Below, piece by piece: positions 7,249 through 30,192 of a DNA stretch of 47,910 bases. Origin of the DNA: Verrucomicrobiota bacterium (GTDB lineage: Bacteria; Verrucomicrobiota; Verrucomicrobiia; Verrucomicrobiales; DEV007); NCBI GenBank assembly GCA_018970725.1, contig JAGWVU010000039.1, positions 1 to 47,910 on the forward strand, in the 5' to 3' direction. A program made the position numbers and the translations under genes. Numbering within the stretch: the first letter of the stretch is position 1; the number at the start of each line of letters is the position of its first letter. Under the pieces are notes generated by a model. That model was not told the DNA's origin. It ran no database searches and was given only the letters and a program-made list of their open reading frames with translations.

Positions 7249-10200
7249 ATGAAATTCCGTGTCGCCCTTTCCCTTGTTTTCTTCTGGAGCCTCACCCCGG
7301 CGCCCGGGGAGGAGGCGCGGCCGCTGAAGGCGTTACTGGTGGCGGGCGGATGCTGTCACGACTACGCGGCGCAACACAAGCTGCTGTTCGAAGGGATCCA
7401 ATCCCGCGCCAACGTGCAAGTGGACGTGTGGTGGACGGATGACAAATCGACCGACCCGCCCCTGGATCTTTACGGGAAAGCGGATTGGGCGGCGGGATAC
7501 GATGTGATCATCCATGACGAGTGCGCGGCCGGGAACAAGGACCTGAAGGTGTTTCAGCGGATTCTCGACGCGCACCGGACGATTCCCGCGGTGCATCTCC
7601 ACTGCGCGATGCACAGTTTCCGCAACGGGACGGACGGCTGGTTCAAGCATCTCGGATTGCAATCGTCCGCGCACGGGCCGCAGGAGCCGATCGAGATCGA
7701 GTTCGTGGATCCGCAACATCCGGTCACGAAGACGCTGGGGGATTGGACCACCATCCGGGAGGAACTTTACAACAACGTGGCGATCCTCGGTGCCCATCCG
7801 CTGGCCACGGGGACGCAACGGGTCAAAGACAAGGACGGGGTGGTCAAGGAGGTGGTTTCGGTCGTGGTCTGGACGAACGAGACCGGAGGCGTCCGCAGTT
7901 TCAGCACCAGCCTCGGTCACAACAACGGGACCGTGGGCGACGCCCGTTACCTGGATCTGGTGACCCGCGGATTGCTCTGGGCCTGCGGCAAGCTGGACCC
8001 GGACCACCTCGGCAAGGCCTTCACCGGGCGGAACAAGGTCACCTTTGTCCCGGGCAAACCGATCCCGCCGAAACCGGCTCCCGCAGCGGTGGTGCCGGGG
8101 GTGGTGCCGAAGGGGGCGACCCCGGTCATCGCGACCGCGAGCAGCGAGGAGAGCGGGAAGAACAACTTCACCTGGTGCGCGGTGGATGGGAATGAGGCCA
8201 CCCGTTGGTGCGCCGCGGGGCCGTCTTACCCGCAGTGGCTGCAGCTGGAGTTGGAGAAAGCGCATCCGTTGACCGGTGTCGAGACCTCTTGGGAGAGCAA
8301 GGCGGTCTATCAATACAAGATCGAGGGTTCCCCCGACGGTTCCGCCTGGACCACGCTGGTGGACGGGTCCGCCAACACGGCGACCGCGCCCTACACGGAC
8401 CGGTTCGCCGCGGTGGCGGGCCTTCGCTTTGTCCGGGTGCAGGCGCTCGGGGCCACCGGGGGTGGTTGGGCGAGCCTCCGCGAGGTGAGGTTGCTGGGGG
8501 AGGGGATCAAGGTTCTCCATCCCAAGCTCAACGAGGCCCAGAGTGCGGCCGCGCGGAAACTGGCCGCGGCGGCGGCGGATCCTTACGCCAGGGAGGGCAA
8601 CGTGACGCCGGTGGCGCGGAAGCCCTCTCCGGAGCAGGAGGCGGCCATCCTTGCCGATGTGAAGGTGGCGGAGGGATTTGACGTGACCCTCTTTGCCGCG
8701 CCCCCCATGGTGAACTACCCGGTGTTCGTCGCAGCCGCTCCGGACGGAACCTTGTATGTCAGCAGCGATGGCAACGGCTCGCTCGGCCGGGACCCGAAAC
8801 GCGGGCGGATCATCCGGTTGCGGGATCTGGATGGCGACGGCCGGGCGGACGAAACGAAGGTTTTTTGTGAGGTGGACGCGCCGCGCGGTCTGGTGTGGGA
8901 CAAGGACCGGCTCCACGTGATGCATCCGCCGCACCTTAGTTCCTTCATCGACGAGGATCTGGACGGCGTGGCCGAACGAACCGAGGTCTTGGTGAAAAAT
9001 TTGGCCTTTGGTTATGACAAGCGCCCGGCCGACCACACGACCAACGGGGTGAGTCTCGGCCCGGACGGCTGGCTTTACATCGCCGGGGGCGACTTCGGGT
9101 TCATCGGCGCGGAGGGCCGGGACGGCCGCAAGCTGACCCATCGCGGCGGCGGGGTGATCCGGGTCCGGACGGACGGCACCGGGCTGGGAATGTATTCCAC
9201 CGGCACGCGGAACATTCTCGAGGTGGCGGTGAGTCCGGAGCTGGAGATTTTCGCGCGGGACAACACGAACGACGGGGGTGGCTGGAACGTCCGGTTCCAC
9301 CATTTCACCGGGCTGGACGATCACGGTTACCCGCGTCTCTACAAGAACTTCCCCGGGGAAGCGATCGCGCCGCTGGCGGATTACGGGGGAGGTTCCGGAT
9401 GCGGGGCGGTCTACCTTGATGAACCCGGGTTCGGGGCATGGAATCATGCGCCGTTCACCTGTGACTGGGGAACCGGCGCGCTCTACCACCACACGGTGCA
9501 GGCCCGGGGCGCGACCTACGTGGAGACGGCCGCCCCCCGCCCGCTGGTCAGGATGACGCGGCCCACCGATGCCGATGTCGATGCCATGAGTCGCGTTTAT
9601 TGCGCGAGTTGGAAAGGGGCGACGTTCAAGTGGGAAGGACCGGAGGTGGGCTACATCGTGCGCGTCCAGCCGAAGGGATTCAAGGCGGAGCCGCTCCCGG
9701 ATTTCGCCAAGGCCGGGGATGCGGTCCTGATCGGGCTTCTTGATTCACCGAGCTACCGCCGCCGCATCGAGGCGCAACGCGAGCTGGGGCGACGCGGTCA
9801 TCCCGCCGCCGCCCGGGCGGTGCAGCGGATCGCGGAAAGACGGACCGCCGAACGCAACGTGATTGCCCGGTTTCAAGAGATCATGGAGGCCGGGGACGCG
9901 GCGGCGGCGGAGGAGATTCTGGCGCAGGCGGGAAGCGGGGATCCGGTGGTGATCCATGCAGCGGCGCGGGCGCTGGCCGCGTTGCAGGCTCCGGGACCGG
10001 TGTTCGCAGCGCTCGACCAATCGGCCGACCCGCCCGGGTTGCCGTTGCGCGCCTTGTCCCTGATGCATCAGCCGGAGGTGGTGGCGGGTTTGCTCCAACG
10101 GCTTGGAAGCACCACCGATCCGGCCCGGCGCGAGGGCCTTCTGGCGGCGCTTTGCCGGCTGCACTTCCGGGAAGGCGCGTGGCAGGGGGATTCCTGGGGC

Positions 10201-24012: not shown

Positions 24013-24933
24013 ATGAAACGGGTGGCGATCATCGGAGCCGGGATGGCAGGCCTTGCGGCGGCGCGGGAGTTGGCGGGCCATGGCCTGGAGGTGACGGTCT
24101 TTGAGAAGTCCCGGGGAATGGGCGGGCGCTGCGCCACGAAGCGGTGGGAGGGCCATGTGGTCGACCACGGAGCGCAGTATTTCACGGTCCGGGACGAGCG
24201 GTTCCGGGCGGCGGTGAGCGCGGCTTCGGGGGACCGGGTGGAAAGGCTGGCGGCCCCGGTGCGGACGGGGGGGCAGGCGACGGAGGATACGGAGCGGTGG
24301 TTTCACCGGGAGGGGAACAGCCGGTTGGCGAGGGATCTGGCGGCGGGGCTCGAGGTTCGTCTGGAGACCACGGTGGAGGACGCCCGGGCGTTGCTCGGCT
24401 CTTTTGACCGGGTTGTGAGCTCCGCGCCCTGGCCGCAAACGGCGCGGATGTTCGGGGTCGATCCCGCCGGGATCGACTACGTGCCGTGTCTGGCCGTGAT
24501 TTTGGCCTACCGGGGAGAGTGGTTGGGGGCCACGGGAAACGCTTATGCGCTCCGGGATCCCCTCGGTCCGTTGGCGTGGACGGCCTGTGAAAATCACAAA
24601 CCGGGCCGGATCGCACCGGGTTTCACGGTGTTGGTCTCCCATCTTTCGGAGGCGTTCAGCCGGGAGCATCTGGAATGTCCGGCGGAGGAATGGCCCGGTC
24701 TGGTGCGGCCCTTGGTGGAAGCGGCGTGGGAACTTTCCGGGGAAGCCTTCGCCGCCGGGTTCGGCCACCGTTGGCGTTATGCCCGGGTCGGCACGCCGTT
24801 TGCGGTTCCGGCTCTTCCGGACCGGTGTCATTTCGCGGGCGACGGGGTCCGGGCCTCGCGGGTGGAGGATGCCTGGCTGGCCGGGCATGAGTTTGCGGTC
24901 AACCTGATCGGAAGCGGTCCATGCGCGGCGTGA
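24013..24933 (+). CDS. Renalase-like NAD(P)/FAD-dependent oxidoreductase
   Basis: 306 residues opening with R-V-A-I-I-G-A-G-M-A-G (Rossmann glycines at 8, 10 and 13), then V-F-E-K-S-R-G-M-G-G-R-C-A-T-K-R, the signature of the renalase/COG3380 branch of amine-oxidase-like flavoproteins, and D-H-G-A-Q-Y-F-T. A C-terminal G-D-G-V segment completes the FAD site. Renalases oxidise isomeric forms of NAD(P)H; bacterial members of this branch are poorly studied. The start at 24013 has a GGGAGGG directly upstream and fits the family; the frame is open from 23968. It is the first gene of a four-gene overlapping operon with DUF2256-DUF3253, photolyase-like and ThuA genes. Confidence 0.8.
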   Translation: MKRVAIIGAGMAGLAAARELAGHGLEVTVFEKSRGMGGRCATKRWEGHVVDHGAQYFTVRDERFRAAVSAASGDRVERLAAPVRTGGQATEDTERWFHREGNSRLARDLAAGLEVRLETTVEDARALLGSFDRVVSSAPWPQTARMFGVDPAGIDYVPCLAVILAYRGEWLGATGNAYALRDPLGPLAWTACENHKPGRIAPGFTVLVSHLSEAFSREHLECPAEEWPGLVRPLVEAAWELSGEAFAAGFGHRWRYARVGTPFAVPALPDRCHFAGDGVRASRVEDAWLAGHEFAVNLIGSGPCAA

Positions 24934-25334
24934 AAAAAGAACATCTTCCCGTCAAGACCTGCCGGGTTTGCGGTCGGGACTTTGCCTGGCGCAAGAAATG
25001 GGAACGGAACTGGGAGGAAGTCACGGTCTGCAGCGAGGCGTGCCGCCGCGGAACCCCGCGGGGGGGAACGGGGCCGGGCATGGAAGAGGTCCAGAAGGTG
25101 CTCATGCAACTGGCGGCGCGGCGGGGTGGCGGCAAGTCCTTCTGTCCGTCGGAGGCGGCGCGGGCCTTGGTGCCGGATCCGGCCGGGGAAGGTTGGAGGG
25201 CGCTGATGCCCCGGGTCCGGGCGGCGGGGGCGGTGCTGGTGCGCCAGAACCTGTTGAAATGCACGCAAGGCGGGATGCCGGTCGATCCGGAAGCCGTGTC
25301 CGGCCCGATCCGATATCAAGCGCCCGATGCCTGA
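24930..25334 (+). CDS. DUF2256-DUF3253 fusion protein
   Basis: 134 residues from a GTG at 24930 that overlaps the upstream stop (GTGA); this gives M-K-K-E-H-L-P-V-K-T-C, the usual DUF2256 opening, whereas the ATG at 24921 adds three atypical residues. DUF2256 (about 5-40) has C11-x2-C14 and C34-x3-C38, a zinc-ribbon-like set, around W-R-K-K-W-E-R-N-W-E-E-V. DUF3253 (about 52-125) follows, with S-E-A-A-R-A-L and W-R-A-L-M-P-x-V-R, a small winged-helix-like domain. DUF2256 genes are often found beside photolyase/cryptochrome genes, as here (8-base overlap with the next gene). Function unknown; a small accessory to the flavoprotein is a reasonable guess. Confidence 0.8.
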   Translation: MKKEHLPVKTCRVCGRDFAWRKKWERNWEEVTVCSEACRRGTPRGGTGPGMEEVQKVLMQLAARRGGGKSFCPSEAARALVPDPAGEGWRALMPRVRAAGAVLVRQNLLKCTQGGMPVDPEAVSGPIRYQAPDA

Positions 25335-27006
25335 GAACCCCTGGGAAATCGTCTGGTTCAAGCGCGACCTGCGGGTCACGGACCATCGTCCGTTGATCGA
25401 GGCGGCGTTCCGGGGCCCGGTGCTTGGGCTTTATGTCTACGAGCCGGAGATTCTGGCCTCGGCGGAATTCGATGCGTCGCACCTCGTGTTCATCAACGAG
25501 TCCTTGCGCGAAGTGCGCGAGGCCTTGAGGCAACGGGGTGGGGAACTGCTGCTGCGGCGCGGAGAAGTGGTCGCGGTGCTGGAGGACCTCCGGAGTCGTC
25601 TCGGTCCGCTGCGTCTTTGGAGCCATGAAGAGACGGGGAACCTCATCACCTACCGCAGGGATCAGCGGGTGGGCCGCTGGTGCCGGGCCTCGGGGGTGGA
25701 GTGGGAGGAATTCCGTCAGGATGGCGTAATCCGCCGCCTCCGTTCCCGGGACGGCTGGGCGTCGGCTTGGGAACGGACCATGAGCCTGCCTTGCGGGCTG
25801 GTGCCGGAGCGTCTCGGAACCGGGATCGTTCCCCGGGGCGCGGGAGAGCCCGGCGGGTTTCTTGGTCCGGAGGAGGCCGGGTTGGGCGGCAGCGGCAAAC
25901 CGGAAGCGCAGCGCGGCGGAGAGACGGCGGCTGGGGCCACCTTGGACGGGTTTTTGTCGACCCGCGGGATGAACTACCGCAAGGAGATGTCGAGCCCGCT
26001 CAGCGGGTGGACCGCCTGTTCCCGCCTGAGTCCGTATCTGGCCTGGGGCTGTGTTTCCCTGCGCACGGTGGCGCAAGCGACCCGTCAACGGCGGGAACGT
26101 CTCGCAGCGGAGCGGGCTTGTGGGCTGGAGGTGGATCGCCGGTGGTTTGCGTCGTTGACCAGCTTTGAGGCACGGTTGCGCTGGCACTGCCACTTCATGC
26201 AGAAGCTGGAAACGGAGCCGGGGATTGAATTCGAGAACTTCTCCGCGGTTTACAACGGCCTGCGCGAGGCGTTCACCGAGACCGGGGAGGGACAGCGGCG
26301 GTTTCAGGCCTGGATGGAGGGACGCACCGGGTATCCGATGGTCGATGCCTGCATGAGGAGCGTGCGGGCGACCGGTTGGCTGAACTTCCGGATGCGGGCG
26401 ATGCTGGTGAGTTTCGCGAGTTACCATCTCTGGTTGCATTGGAGGCCGACGGCGCTCTGGCTGGGGCGCCACTTTTTGGATTTCGAGCCGGGGATCCACT
26501 TCAGCCAGTTCCAGATGCAAAGCGGCACCACGGGGATCAACGCGGTGCGGATCTACTCGCCCGCCAAGCAGCTCATCGATCAGGATCCGCAAGGGGTTTT
26601 CGTGAAGCGTTGGGTGCCCGAACTGGAAGGGGTCCCGACCGCCTTTCTGGCTCAACCGGAGAAAATGCCGGCCGGGTTGCAGCAGCAAACCGGTTGCCGG
26701 ATCGGGCGGGATTACCCGGCCCCCGTCGTGGATCACCTCCTGGCCTGCCGGGAGGCCAAGGCCAGAATCTCCGGGGTGCGGCGGCTGGAGGAGGCGCGTT
26801 CGGAGGCCCGGAGGGTCTATGTGACCCATGGTTCCCGCAAGCGCGGCGCGGGTGGCGCCCGGGCCATCCGGTCGGAGTGGCGGGAACGCGGGTTGAGCGG
26901 CAAAGGAAAAAAAGCCGCCCCCGCGGAGCCGTCGGCCCAACTGGAGTTGGAGTTGTTCGATTCCCGCTTGCGGAACGACGGATTTCCGGGTGAGATGGGG
27001 ACATGA
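25327..27006 (+). CDS. Cryptochrome/photolyase-family flavoprotein (divergent class)
   Basis: 559 residues. The N-terminal photolyase alpha/beta domain begins I-V-W-F-K-R-D-L-R-V-T-D-H; the C-terminal FAD domain has the typical M-V-D-A-C-M-R and T-G-W-L-N-F-R-M-R. However the stretch corresponding to N-N-G-G-W-Q-W in E. coli photolyase reads H-F-S-Q-F-Q-M-Q at 391-398, so the flavin-N5 asparagine (N378) and the proximal tryptophan of the electron chain (W382) are both replaced. W359 appears kept (L-H-W). This matches a distinct clade that includes cyanobacterial proteins annotated only as FAD-binding. DNA repair activity is therefore uncertain; a light-sensing or redox role is possible. It overlaps the genes on both sides. 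Confidence 0.8.
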   Translation: MPENPWEIVWFKRDLRVTDHRPLIEAAFRGPVLGLYVYEPEILASAEFDASHLVFINESLREVREALRQRGGELLLRRGEVVAVLEDLRSRLGPLRLWSHEETGNLITYRRDQRVGRWCRASGVEWEEFRQDGVIRRLRSRDGWASAWERTMSLPCGLVPERLGTGIVPRGAGEPGGFLGPEEAGLGGSGKPEAQRGGETAAGATLDGFLSTRGMNYRKEMSSPLSGWTACSRLSPYLAWGCVSLRTVAQATRQRRERLAAERACGLEVDRRWFASLTSFEARLRWHCHFMQKLETEPGIEFENFSAVYNGLREAFTETGEGQRRFQAWMEGRTGYPMVDACMRSVRATGWLNFRMRAMLVSFASYHLWLHWRPTALWLGRHFLDFEPGIHFSQFQMQSGTTGINAVRIYSPAKQLIDQDPQGVFVKRWVPELEGVPTAFLAQPEKMPAGLQQQTGCRIGRDYPAPVVDHLLACREAKARISGVRRLEEARSEARRVYVTHGSRKRGAGGARAIRSEWRERGLSGKGKKAAPAEPSAQLELELFDSRLRNDGFPGEMGT

Positions 27007-27881
27007 TCCCTTTGCCGAGAAAGCCCCTGCTGCTGTTGGTCTGCCTGTCCGCCGTCGCGGGCCTCTGGATGATGCCGTCCGTCCGGACCGCGGAAGCGCC
27101 GGGAACCTTGAAGGTTCTGCTGGTGGCGGGCGGTTGTTGCCATGATTACGCCACGCAGACCCTGCTGTTGAAAGAGGGGATCGAGGCCCGCCTCAAGGCC
27201 CGGGTCGAGGTGGTCCACAACCCGGACAAGACCACCAAGGCAACCTTCGGGATCTACCAATCCGCCGATTGGGCCAAGGGATACGACGTGGTGATCCACG
27301 ATGAATGTTCCGCCGATGTGACCGACCCGGCCTACGTGAAGCGGATTCTCGACGCGCATCGCCAGGGAGTCCCGGCGGTCAACCTGCATTGTGCGATGCA
27401 CAGCTATCGTTGGGGCAACTTCCGTGAACCGGTCCAGACCGGGGCCGAAAACGCCGGTTGGTATGAAATGCTGGGCCTTCAGTCGACCGGACATGGCCCG
27501 CAATCGCCCATCGACATCAGCTATGTGGACGCGGCCCACCCGATCGCCAAAGGCTTGGCGGGTTGGACCACGGTGAACGAGGAACTCTACAACAACGTCC
27601 AGATCCTCACCGGCCATCCGATCGCCAAGGGCAGGCAACTGCAAAAGCCCCGGGTGAAACCGGGCGAGCCGGCCCAACCAGCCCGGGAAGTGGACGCGGT
27701 GGTGGCATGGACCAACGAATTCGGCCCCGGCAAGACGCGCATCTTCAGCACCACCATCGGCCACAACAATGACACGGTGGGCGATGCCCGCTACCTCGAT
27801 CTCGTGTGCCGCGGGCTGCTCTGGGCCACGGGAAATCTCTCCGCCGACGGCACGCCGGCCAACGGGCTGGGAGCCCCTTGA
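27003..27881 (+). CDS. Secreted ThuA-domain protein
   Basis: 292 residues with an N-terminal signal peptide (hydrophobic L-L-L-L-V-C-L-S core), then a ThuA domain beginning L-K-V-L-L-V-A-G-G-C-C-H-D-Y-A-T and containing H-D-E-C, H-C-A-M-H-S-Y-R-W and a late T-I-G-H-N-N-D-T-V. ThuA folds like class I glutamine amidotransferases; ThuA of rhizobia takes part in trehalose oxidation, and exported members are presumed sugar-modifying. It is clearly a paralogue of the first domain of the 1401-residue fusion at 7249. Its ATG overlaps the photolyase stop (ATGA), so it is co-translated with a cytoplasmic flavoprotein, an odd pairing. Confidence 0.85.
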   Translation: MIPLPRKPLLLLVCLSAVAGLWMMPSVRTAEAPGTLKVLLVAGGCCHDYATQTLLLKEGIEARLKARVEVVHNPDKTTKATFGIYQSADWAKGYDVVIHDECSADVTDPAYVKRILDAHRQGVPAVNLHCAMHSYRWGNFREPVQTGAENAGWYEMLGLQSTGHGPQSPIDISYVDAAHPIAKGLAGWTTVNEELYNNVQILTGHPIAKGRQLQKPRVKPGEPAQPAREVDAVVAWTNEFGPGKTRIFSTTIGHNNDTVGDARYLDLVCRGLLWATGNLSADGTPANGLGAP

Positions 27882-27882
27882 G

Positions 27883-29442
27883 TCAGCCTTCCAAGGCGCG
27901 GGTCAGAATCCGGTCGATGTTCGCCTCCGCATCGGCGGAGCCGTCCAGTTCCAGAAGGACCATGCCCTCACGCTCGTCCGGGGCCTCGAAAGAATCCCGG
28001 AGCCTTTCGTAGACCCGCGTCCCGGCATCGCTCACCGAGGTTTCCGGTTCCTCATCCCGGGCCTCGAGGCGGGAACGCGTGACCGGTTCCGGGGCGCGGA
28101 CCCAAATCAGGATGGGCCGGGCTCCCGCGGCCCGAGCCACCTCCCGGGCCTCCGCCCGGGACGCTCTGGAGCGGAAGTTCGCGTCCAGCAGCACGCAAAG
28201 GCCGTGGTCGAGCGCTTCCCGGGCGCGGCGGAAGAGTTCTTGATAAGTGCGTTTACTGGCCTCCGGTGAGTAGAATGCCTCCCCGAGGACCGATTCCGGG
28301 GCGACGCCGGCGAGTTCCTTGCGGATATGATCCGTGGCCAGACAGGGCCAACCCGTGCGGGCGGACAGGGCGCGGAGAAGCCAGGATTTTCCGGCGGCGG
28401 GAAGGCCGCAGGCCACGACGAGCCAGGGAGGGGAACTGACCGCGGCGGCGGCGGCGAGTTGGAGATAGCGGCGGGCCTCCCGGGCTTCGGCGGCGCGCTC
28501 CGGGGCGGACAGATCGGGACTCGAAGCCGCCAGAGCGCCGACCTTGGCACGGACCATGGCCCGATAGCTGACAAGGGCCGGCATCAGCGCCCTTTGCCCG
28601 GTATCGCCGGTCCGCTCAATGTAGGCATCCAGATAGGCTTTGGCCAGATCGGGCCGCCCTCGATGAATCAGATCCATCACCAGAAAGGCGTTCTCCGTGG
28701 CCACGTCCCCGCAGCGGAATTGGGGCCGGAACTCGATGCAATCAAAGATGACCGGCGGCTCGGTGAGGAAAATGTTGCGGGCGTGGAGATCGCCATGGCC
28801 ATCCACCACCCGCCCCTCCTTCAGACGGCGCTGCAGGATCGGACGCAGGCCATCGACCTCCCTTCGCACGTGGCGTTCCAAGGCGGGATGCAGCGGCCCC
28901 GGGAACATGGTGTCCGCCAGGCTTTCGATGGCCTCGAAATTCCCCAGGATGGCGTCGATCTTCGACTCCGGTCCACCGGCGGCCAAGGTGGCCGCGTCCC
29001 GGGGCGAGGCCTGATGGAACCCGGCCATGATCCCGGCGAGACGGACCACGTCCGATGGGGCGACGCTGCCGTGCTCCAAAAGGTTGCTCAGGAGCCGCTC
29101 CTCCGGGAGCCGCCGCATGTGCACCGCGTGGTCCACCACGACCGCGCCCGGCGAGGGGCGGAAGGACCAGAGACCGTCCGGGTCTTGGTAGAGGGGGACC
29201 ACTCCCAGATAGACCTCCGGGCAAAGGCGCCGGTTGAGCCGCACCTCCTCCTCGCAAAAGTGGCGCCGAAGATCCGCCGTGGAAAAATCCACGAAAGAGA
29301 ACCGGACCGGTTTTTTCAGTTTGTAGACCTCCGGGCCCGCCAGACAGACCACCGAGAGATGGGTTTGCCGGATTTCCACCGAGGCCGGCGATCCCGGAAA
29401 ACAGGAGGGGTCGCTCAGGCGGAGAAGAAGATCGGGGGACAT
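27883..29442 (-). CDS. Aminoglycoside-phosphotransferase-like / AAA-type kinase fusion
   Basis: 519 residues with two kinase modules. The N-terminal part (about 30-300) is of the APH/choline kinase type, with the Brenner motif H216-G-D-L-H-A-R-N223 followed by I-F-D-C-I-E-F. The C-terminal part (about 340-510) is an AAA_33/zeta-toxin-like P-loop kinase with G-L-P-A-A-G-K-S at 346-353 and L-L-D-A-N-F-R-S-R. Such fusions are widespread and are annotated as bifunctional aminoglycoside phosphotransferase/ATP-binding proteins; the natural substrate is unknown and resistance should not be assumed. The start at 29442 is chosen because the protein family begins about there; the frame is open much further upstream, antisense to the cytochrome gene. 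It ends one base after the ThuA stop, facing it. Confidence 0.8.
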   Translation of the reverse strand: MSPDLLLRLSDPSCFPGSPASVEIRQTHLSVVCLAGPEVYKLKKPVRFSFVDFSTADLRRHFCEEEVRLNRRLCPEVYLGVVPLYQDPDGLWSFRPSPGAVVVDHAVHMRRLPEERLLSNLLEHGSVAPSDVVRLAGIMAGFHQASPRDAATLAAGGPESKIDAILGNFEAIESLADTMFPGPLHPALERHVRREVDGLRPILQRRLKEGRVVDGHGDLHARNIFLTEPPVIFDCIEFRPQFRCGDVATENAFLVMDLIHRGRPDLAKAYLDAYIERTGDTGQRALMPALVSYRAMVRAKVGALAASSPDLSAPERAAEAREARRYLQLAAAAAVSSPPWLVVACGLPAAGKSWLLRALSARTGWPCLATDHIRKELAGVAPESVLGEAFYSPEASKRTYQELFRRAREALDHGLCVLLDANFRSRASRAEAREVARAAGARPILIWVRAPEPVTRSRLEARDEEPETSVSDAGTRVYERLRDSFEAPDEREGMVLLELDGSADAEANIDRILTRALEG

Positions 29443-29520
29443 GAGACCAAAGGATAGCTCATGCGGGATCTCTGGCAAACCATGCAGGGCGCCCGGTGTG
29501 GTCAGGGGGCACGGTGCAAA

Positions 29521-30192
29521 ATGAGAAGTTGGGTTTTCATCGGGATTCTCGCCGTGCAGGGCGTCGCCAGCGCTCAGGAAAAGAGGATCGATTCCCGGCC
29601 GGAAGCGGAGCCGGAGACGATACATTTTTGGAACAACGAATGCGCCACCTGCCACGGGCAGAAGGGTGAGGGCATTGAGGAAGCCAAGGCTCCGGCCCTT
29701 GCCGGCTTGCCGGATTATTATGTGCTCGAACAGATCGCGGAATTCCGGCAGGGCCTGCGCAAGGGAGTGGACGACACCGGCTCGGGTTTTGTGGCGGAGA
29801 TGCACCGGGAGGCCGTGGAATTGGAGGACGATCTCTTTCGCAAGCTGGCCGTCCACATCGCTTCCCTGCCGGTGCAACGTCCCCATCGCACCGTATCGGG
29901 TGATCCTGCGGCCGGCCGCCAGCCTTACCGGGAGCTTTGCGCGGAATGTCACGGGGCGGCGGCCCAGGGGGACCCCGTGAAGCGGACGCCCCCTTTGCAT
30001 GGTTTTCAGGACTGGTATCTGGTCGAGCAGATCCGGCGGTTCCGGGTCGGCCTGCGGCAGCCGGAGCCGTCGCATGGGGAGTCCCTCCGGATGCATGCCA
30101 TGGCCCTGCGGTTCCCCTCCCTCGGGGAGGCGCGGGATATCGCGCTTTACATCAACGCCTTCCTTCCTTTACAACCGGACGCGGAGCCCTGA
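29521..30192 (+). CDS. Diheme cytochrome c (c4/c553-like)
   Basis: 223 residues with a signal peptide ending near V-A-S-A-Q and two class I cytochrome domains: heme sites C41-A-T-C-H45 and C140-A-E-C-H144. Each domain shows the G-x-G-E/A loop and a later methionine that can be the axial ligand (A-E-M-H and H-A-M-A). The duplication and size match periplasmic cytochrome c4-like electron carriers feeding terminal oxidases. The start at 29521 is chosen over 29461 because it begins the signal peptide. It is divergent from the kinase fusion across 78 bases. Confidence 0.85.
   Translation: MRSWVFIGILAVQGVASAQEKRIDSRPEAEPETIHFWNNECATCHGQKGEGIEEAKAPALAGLPDYYVLEQIAEFRQGLRKGVDDTGSGFVAEMHREAVELEDDLFRKLAVHIASLPVQRPHRTVSGDPAAGRQPYRELCAECHGAAAQGDPVKRTPPLHGFQDWYLVEQIRRFRVGLRQPEPSHGESLRMHAMALRFPSLGEARDIALYINAFLPLQPDAEP

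Follow-up and report, generated by a model that had tools for sequence, protein, structure and literature searches.

A light-induced cluster in Pseudomonas mendocina, near the gene for LitR, comprises phrB, a short-chain dehydrogenase gene and a gene for a flavin adenine dinucleotide (FAD)-dependent oxidoreductase (PMC9758184); RudS (TudS-DUF1722), which acts on tRNA 4-thiouridine, is often encoded in light-responsive operons (PMC11417400); and photolyase/cryptochrome operons of Vibrio cholerae are induced by blue light (PMC5241685). Taken together, these systems show that photolyase neighbourhoods collect light-stress genes. Here, we describe an operon at positions 24013-27881 of a 47,910-nucleotide stretch of DNA (the window) from contig JAGWVU010000039.1 of a Verrucomicrobiota bacterium, which encodes a renalase-like flavoprotein (REN), a DUF2256-DUF3253 fusion protein (FUS), a photolyase/cryptochrome-family protein (PHR) and a ThuA-domain protein (THU). 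On balance, we lean towards reading this operon as a light-damage repair unit made up of a DNA photoenzyme, a zinc-finger/winged-helix accessory protein and a renalase-type enzyme of nicotinamide repair.

Renalases hand electrons to O2, and we know of no established cellular role for bacterial renalases, for DUF2256 or for DUF3253. The substrates that human renalase oxidises are the 1,2- and 1,6-forms of NAD(P)H, and it is inactive on ordinary 1,4-NAD(P)H; the 1,2- and 1,6-forms arise, among other ways, in nonspecific photochemical reduction, and they inhibit dehydrogenases (PMC7660482).

The operon and its REN and FUS products

The four genes lie on the + strand, each running from ATG to TGA, and neighbouring genes overlap by 13 nucleotides (nt; REN/FUS), 8 nt (FUS/PHR) and 4 nt (PHR/THU), which bears out the overlapping four-gene operon proposed in a first-pass annotation of the window. 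REN (24013-24933) encodes a renalase-like FAD protein of 306 amino acids (aa), FUS (24921-25334) a fusion protein of 137 aa, PHR (25327-27006) a protein of 559 aa and THU (27003-27881) a protein of 292 aa. The order REN-FUS-PHR-THU is kept in the genus-mates G265 and G266 (locus L003 was treated as belonging to the same genome as G266). Both have the FUS/PHR and PHR/THU overlaps, the latter of 4 nt in each; REN and FUS are separated by 8 nt in G265 and by 4 nt in G266, so the REN/FUS overlap alone is peculiar to the window genome. Four of the seven flanking window proteins that were compared also occur in G265, whose gene order may thus reflect little more than shared ancestry. By contrast, the seven proteins have no match in the G266 region, where the four-gene block is kept despite the absence of the window's flanking genes. 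A family search matched FUS or a part of it in 34 of 74 genomes, the window's own included, and the full-length fusion is present in all three genomes of genus g1 (G000, G265 and G266).

REN matches the Pfam families NAD_binding_8 and Amino_oxidase, which represent amine-oxidase-type flavoproteins. Its best match of solved structure is the bacterial renalase 4zcc, which we take to be of Pseudomonas origin (4zcc residues 5-324 against REN residues 4-299, E = 5e-25). A profile (A1) built from REN of the window, of the genus-mates and of REN genes near photolyase or DUF2256 genes matches over full length both 4zcc (E = 1e-86) and human renalase 3qj4 (residues 2-339, E = 1e-31). Judged by this full-length similarity to solved renalases, REN is a member of the renalase family. 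The REN proteins of other clusters outside the genus are 28-34% identical to that of the window.

FUS exceeds the Pfam cut-offs of both its domains (DUF2256, 69 bits against 25; DUF3253, 79.3 bits against 22.1), and its AlphaFold model has a mean predicted local distance difference test score (pLDDT) of 86. The DUF2256 part (24933-25049, aa 5-43) is a four-cysteine putative zinc finger, in which C14, C17, C37 and C41 are invariant in all seven aligned fusion proteins; these cysteines fit the placing of DUF2256 in the metal-binding TRASH clan (PMC4047054). The DUF3253 part (25083-25322, aa 55-134), with a predicted winged-helix-like fold, has a solved relative, 2ns0, found by sequence (E = 3e-9) and by fold (E = 7e-8). 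The fold matches that follow 2ns0 are weak (E above 0.01); many winged helices are among them, and so are transcription regulators. DUF2256 frames with long N-terminal extensions were seen at L179:5162-6145 and L190:4998-5789, where the extensions may be mere upstream open frame, and an open frame at L218:4008-4895 carries DUF2256 with a DUF6134 domain.

PHR and photolyase clade S

PHR carries the Pfam domains DNA_photolyase (PF00875) and FAD_binding_7 (PF03441), the latter at 26167-26769 (aa 281-481), where the changed active-site positions described below are located. Based on these two domains and on the photolyase fold of its model, we assign PHR to the photolyase/cryptochrome superfamily. 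A MAFFT alignment of 151 photolyase-family sequences was read at the positions known from the E. coli literature, whose roles concern the lesion site, flavin N5 and the electron relay. The uncharacterised clade that holds PHR, here labelled clade S, has 35 aligned rows, which stand for 29 proteins because six rows repeat a gene already represented, in partly truncated form. In E. coli numbering, positions 274, 341, 378 and 384 are occupied by Arg, Phe, His and Met, respectively, in all 35 rows, and none has Trp at 382 or 306; position 345 is Ala in 31 rows and Ser in four. W277 and D372 are kept in every row and W359 in 34. In the 70 rows of class I and DASH type, positions 341 and 378 are invariably Asn and positions 359 and 382 invariably Trp; Glu274 is present in 67 of these rows.

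In the window PHR, the replacements are R283, F354, A358, H391 and F395, corresponding to E274R, N341F, M345A, N378H and W382F, together with W306E. All four residues of class I cyclobutane pyrimidine dimer (CPD) photolyases considered (E274, N341, M345 and N378) are thus replaced, and the tryptophan triad W306-W359-W382 reads E, W, F and is not intact. The positions Y222, W277, R342, R344, W359 and D372 are kept. A second photolyase of the window genome, on contig C79, keeps all eight canonical residues checked. The non-canonical character that had been ascribed to the photolyase-like protein from the sequence is upheld by these residues, R283, F354 and H391 among them, and by the clade.

A tree of 62 of the 151 rows, including 27 of the 35 S rows, placed clade S on one side of a branch with a Shimodaira-Hasegawa-like approximate likelihood ratio test (SH-aLRT, the only support computed) value of 100, with a warning from the tree program of long branches meeting. 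The references in this tree were E. coli Phr, DASH-type, class I-type and PF04244-type proteins and one class II-like protein, with no proven plant, animal, class III or (6-4) member.

PHR falls short of every NCBIfam class model. Against the class I and 8-HDF models, it scores 132 bits with PRK10674 (cut-off 506) and 144 bits with TIGR03556 (cut-off 884.6); these cut-offs are strict, as the class I-like control L175 stays below each of them, with 332 and 380 bits, while E. coli Phr passes PRK10674 with 958. It reaches 160 bits with the CRY-DASH model TIGR02765 (cut-off 317; the DASH control L013:6120-7424 scores 486), 152 bits with the plant cryptochrome model TIGR02766 (cut-off 604; a model without a passing control) and 32 bits with the class II CPD model TIGR00591 (cut-off 550, which the class II-like half of L004 also misses with 278). 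Three other S members are likewise below all NCBIfam photolyase cut-offs. Additionally, PHR has no match at E <= 0.001 to PF04244, whose photolyase-related proteins we take to be of the FeS-BCP type. Nor is it of the Phr7 kind, presumably the same as NewPHL, since its FAD_binding_7 domain lies at aa 281-481 of 559; in the short FAD-first photolyases (Phr7), the FAD domain is N-terminal (PMC9426592).

Sequence comparison with PDB chains gave much alike scores for chains of different classes. The best match was AtCRY1 (E = 1e-38), followed by Synechocystis 1np7 (E = 1e-37), which we take to be DASH-type, and none of the matched chains looks like a close relative of clade S. The AlphaFold model of PHR (mean pLDDT 81.9; residues 505-515 and 522-559 below 50) has the photolyase fold, with Z = 38.3 to 6kii and a root-mean-square deviation of 2.2 over 456 residues. 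Fold was rejected as a means of assigning PHR to a class, for the 50 matches listed, with Z of 33-38, range over chains of class I, class III and DASH type, (6-4) photolyases and the cryptochromes of plants and animals.

A plasmid search for clade S returned seven Deinococcus records (L163, L168 and L283-L287). In six of them, the S match lies inside one annotated coding sequence named only uracil-DNA glycosylase, so that the photolyase half is hidden in the annotation; in the seventh, the frame is open throughout and the annotated start falls inside it. By Pfam, L168 and L163 both contain PF00875, PF03441 and PF03167, and L168 passes five NCBIfam uracil-DNA glycosylase cut-offs; the glycosylase part of the other five records rests on annotation. 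An example of such a Deinococcus protein is D. proteolyticus DEIPR_RS10490. This fusion favours a DNA repair role for clade S. In dimers with deaminated cytosine, photoreversal may leave uracil for the glycosylase. In Tritonibacter, a DUF2256 gene starts 4 nt after an S gene.

A different, short photolyase-like protein, whose FAD_binding_7-type match is incomplete and which is possibly of the Phr7/NewPHL type, was seen near or beside DUF2256 in L177, L190 and L008, and the window genome has a relative of these proteins, 40-47% identical, on contig C78 (L176).

Linkage and fusion of REN, DUF2256 and photolyase genes

In a sample of 194 genomes of the window's phylum, DUF2256 exceeds its cut-off in 17 genomes, PF03441 photolyases are present in 60 (57 over cut-off), and REN, defined by profile matches at E <= 1e-25, has 31 hits in 30 genomes. 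The linkage of these genes is not random: 8 of the 17 DUF2256 genes (expected 0.08) and 11 of the 31 REN genes (expected 0.13) lie within 4 kb of a photolyase gene, and DUF2256 is found at most 4 kb away from 6 of the 31 REN genes (expected 0.05), values that treat genomes as independent and ignore relatedness, which makes the attached probabilities too small. A PF03441 photolyase is present in all 17 DUF2256 genomes and in 29 of the 30 REN genomes, against 60 of 194 overall. At two loci (L246 and L247), a class I-type photolyase, a PF04244 protein, DUF2256, an SRPBCC-epimerase and REN follow one another on the same strand; L245 has this order minus DUF2256. Shorter sets comprise photolyase, PF04244 protein, epimerase and REN (L250), photolyase, epimerase and REN (L248, L249, L251 and L252), photolyase, DUF2256, epimerase and REN (L183), and DUF2256, epimerase and REN (L184). 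At L178, REN is about 1.9 kb from an S photolyase, on the opposite strand. The NAD-epimerase-type gene stands next to REN, between REN and the photolyase genes, in all eight loci L245-L252; its SRPBCC part was detected in L245-L247 only.

The second sample, chosen by similarity to FUS and blind to photolyases, comprised the 80 best of 121 FUS-related loci of the genome_contigs set. Here, a photolyase-family gene lies within 3 kb of 41 of 67 DUF2256-only, three of four fused and five of 11 DUF3253-only open reading frames (ORFs), labels that come from phmmer thresholds, with L021, L030, L065 and L070, for example, counted as DUF2256-alone though their tblastn matches span both domains, and with the two domains of L019 in two overlapping frames. 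REN is within 3 kb of none of the 67 DUF2256-only ORFs. The first-pass annotation had suggested that the flavoprotein and the two-domain fusion form a functional unit; it is true that they recur with photolyases, but DUF2256 looks more like a partner of photolyases than of the flavoprotein. A flavin reductase was considered as an S-specific partner and rejected, as same-strand copies no more than 1.5 kb away accompany 2 of the 18 S ORFs in the 80 loci, but also 10 of the 46 other photolyase ORFs and 6 of the 38 PF04244-type ORFs. DUF2256 adjoins photolyase-family genes of several classes, namely class I-type, DASH-type, PF04244, S and short FAD-first ones, and a natural guess is therefore that FUS is a nucleic-acid or protein adaptor for photolyases.

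The association extends to other phyla. Among 142 alphaproteobacterial genomes, 20 contain REN (21 hits), and of the 20 neighbourhoods examined (the G370 hit was left out), L211, L213, L214 and L222 contain a photolyase-family gene that is either nearby or joined to REN, and one has DUF2256 (L218). REN is found near S photolyases in L211, L213 and L273, in addition to the window's genus. In L222:4142-6559, a single 805-aa frame joins a photolyase-like N-terminal part to a renalase-like C-terminal part, which matches bacterial renalase with E = 3e-43. A comparable photolyase-renalase fusion is encoded by L004:3590-6010 (Phycisphaerales); its N-terminal part spans the class II model at 278 bits, below the cut-off of 550, so that class II-like here refers to best matches, and a DUF2256-DUF3253 gene overlaps its 3' end. 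Among 198 genomes of the planctomycete class, whole or partial matches to the fusion occur in 46; it is complete and free of stops in five (L004 and L256-L259), while L222 is the alphaproteobacterial carrier of this class II-like photolyase-renalase fusion. That the fusion is an assembly chimera was ruled out by its presence in five genomes, the other four being 43-48% identical to L004 and free of internal stops. A DUF2256-DUF3253 gene adjoins it in two of the five (G414 and G575). Stand-alone REN of the planctomycete class has a photolyase nearby in one of ten loci (L273, clade S).

The light-related theme that the first-pass annotation had raised is in keeping with these results, in that outside the genus, too, genes for the flavoprotein, for DUF2256 (alone or joined to DUF3253) and for photolyase-family proteins are repeatedly found in one another's company; the conserved linkage in relatives, on which that proposal had been staked, was found. 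The first three genes of the operon make up a recurrent unit, to which ThuA looks like an addition at genus level.

THU exceeds the Pfam ThuA cut-off (PF06283, 70.1 bits against 33.4), and a hydrophobic, signal-like stretch recognised by eye at its N terminus suggests that the product is probably exported. The gene is coupled to the operon in the three genus genomes, as had been noted for the window, but in this genus only, and it is one of 13 ThuA hits in the window genome, 12 of them over cut-off. The phylum sample has ten further clusters of REN with a photolyase (L178, L183 and L245-L252), and no ThuA gene was seen in any of them, with L252 reaching its contig edge just past REN. With none seen outside the genus, ThuA was dropped as a core part of the unit, and THU is best treated as a genus-specific passenger with another job. 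A second ThuA domain of the window, at 7330-7983 (+), is part of an open frame of 2076 aa. A 737-aa frame at 27883-30096 (-), convergent to the operon, combines an APH-like kinase domain and an AAA_33 domain.

Proposed function and comparison with known systems

If the operon is a light-damage repair unit, PHR would be a DNA-binding FAD photoenzyme for the repair of a UV or blue-light lesion. Its active site would be unlike those of the classes compared, in that Arg replaces Glu274, Phe replaces Asn341, His takes the place of Asn378 next to flavin N5 and the tryptophan chain is broken, and canonical CPD repair would be left to the second photolyase elsewhere in the window genome. FUS, with its zinc finger and winged helix, would be an accessory that helps photolyases act on DNA. 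REN would be a renalase-type oxidase that turns dead-end 1,2-/1,6-NAD(P)H back to NAD(P)+; nonspecific photochemical reduction can make these compounds, and we suppose that they form in illuminated cells and that REN clears them. THU would remain a passenger, and the operon would be induced by light. The linkages and fusions give renalase, DUF2256, DUF3253 and clade S a concrete context, that of light-damage repair. If clade S repairs DNA with a changed active site, it would add a further mechanism to a much-studied enzyme family, and if renalase clears light-damaged nicotinamide, this would explain why some bacteria keep a renalase.

Several observations weigh against this proposal. The 11 REN-photolyase links of the phylum sample fall in four families (f1, f4, f6 and f12), so the counts are not independent, and contig edges cut off some loci. 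Of the 31 REN genes of that sample, 20 have no PF03441 gene within 4 kb (one of them, in G085, has DUF2256); neither a photolyase nor DUF2256 is in view at 15 of 20 alphaproteobacterial REN loci and at nine of ten stand-alone REN loci of the planctomycete class. REN therefore has a life outside photolyase operons. Likewise, 26 of the 67 DUF2256-only ORFs have no photolyase within 3 kb, with DUF2805 next to two of these and an SRPBCC gene next to four. A protein that has lost Glu274, Asn378 and the tryptophan chain could just as well be one that has given up DNA repair, and we infer both the light regulation and the damage of nicotinamide by daylight in cells.

In the main rival to nicotinamide repair, REN would serve the photolyase as its own electron donor and maintain the flavin in reduced form; clade S, with its broken tryptophan relay, would depend on REN, and the fusions would channel electrons within one chain. 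The absence of W382 and W306 from all S rows, the fusion of REN to a class II-like photolyase and the REN genes near S photolyases in L211, L213, L273 and the window's genus are as expected from such a donor; nevertheless, we consider it unlikely, as REN is also linked to class I-type photolyases (all 70 class I/DASH-type rows keep W359 and W382), 17 of the 18 S ORFs in the 80 FUS-related loci lack a same-strand REN gene up to 1.5 kb away, and the linked flavin reductase is not S-specific. The inactivity of human renalase on 1,4-NAD(P)H and the passing of renalase electrons to O2, both mentioned above, point the same way. Less probable still is that PHR is a blue-light receptor of the cryptochrome kind with FUS as its DNA-binding output: the joining of clade S to uracil-DNA glycosylase in Deinococcus speaks for repair, and the occurrence of DUF2256 beside class I-type, DASH-type and PF04244 photolyases would be odd for a dedicated output, even though Glu274 and Asn378 are replaced in all 35 S rows, transcription regulators are among the weak fold matches of FUS, and the genes of the operon overlap.

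The genes might also share light induction only, as members of a stress regulon with unrelated jobs and no functional coupling. THU fits this, as do the phrB cluster of P. mendocina near the LitR gene, many genes of which are light-induced (PMC9758184), and the RudS genes often found in light-responsive operons (PMC11417400); yet the gene overlaps and the retention of the photolyase-REN fusion in five genomes, with 43-48% identity to L004, indicate a tighter coupling, which makes shared induction alone rather improbable. Finally, an extension of the repair reading is doubtful in our view. It would make clade S a new photolyase class, histidine-gated, arginine-lined and loaded by the zinc-finger/winged-helix protein, for a lesion missed by the known classes, and renalase at root a partner of bacterial photolyases, through repair of nicotinamide photodamage or as flavin reductant. 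The lesion would perhaps be dimers with deaminated cytosine, hence the glycosylase fusion in Deinococcus.

In the open literature searched, we found no paper joining renalase with photolyase, no mention of DUF3253, COG3380, COG4338 or ro06458, and nothing combining Deinococcus gobiensis, photolyase and uracil. DUF2256 appears in two papers, in other contexts and not with photolyase in the passages covered, and the titles and beginnings of abstracts listed contain no description of clade S or of the fusions.

Compared with described proteins, PHR shares with E. coli Phr (CPD class I) the two-domain fold and the six positions from Y222 to D372 listed above, and differs from it at E274R, N341F, M345A, N378H, W382F and W306E. 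Plant cryptochrome AtCRY1 and the DASH-type 1np7 are its best PDB sequence matches, but its scores are below the cut-offs of both classes. REN resembles bacterial renalase 4zcc in an alignment over nearly its full length. As for gene clusters, the phrB cluster of P. mendocina resembles the loci reported here in combining a photolyase, a short-chain dehydrogenase and an FAD-dependent oxidoreductase; unlike that cluster, the window showed no MerR/LitR regulator when the five neighbouring genes were compared with Pfam. RudS offers a parallel, as a domain of unknown function explained with the help of a photolyase-operon context, but belongs to other protein families. The window unit is of this light-stress neighbourhood kind, with new members: the link to renalase, fusions included, the DUF2256-DUF3253 protein and an uncharacterised photolyase clade.

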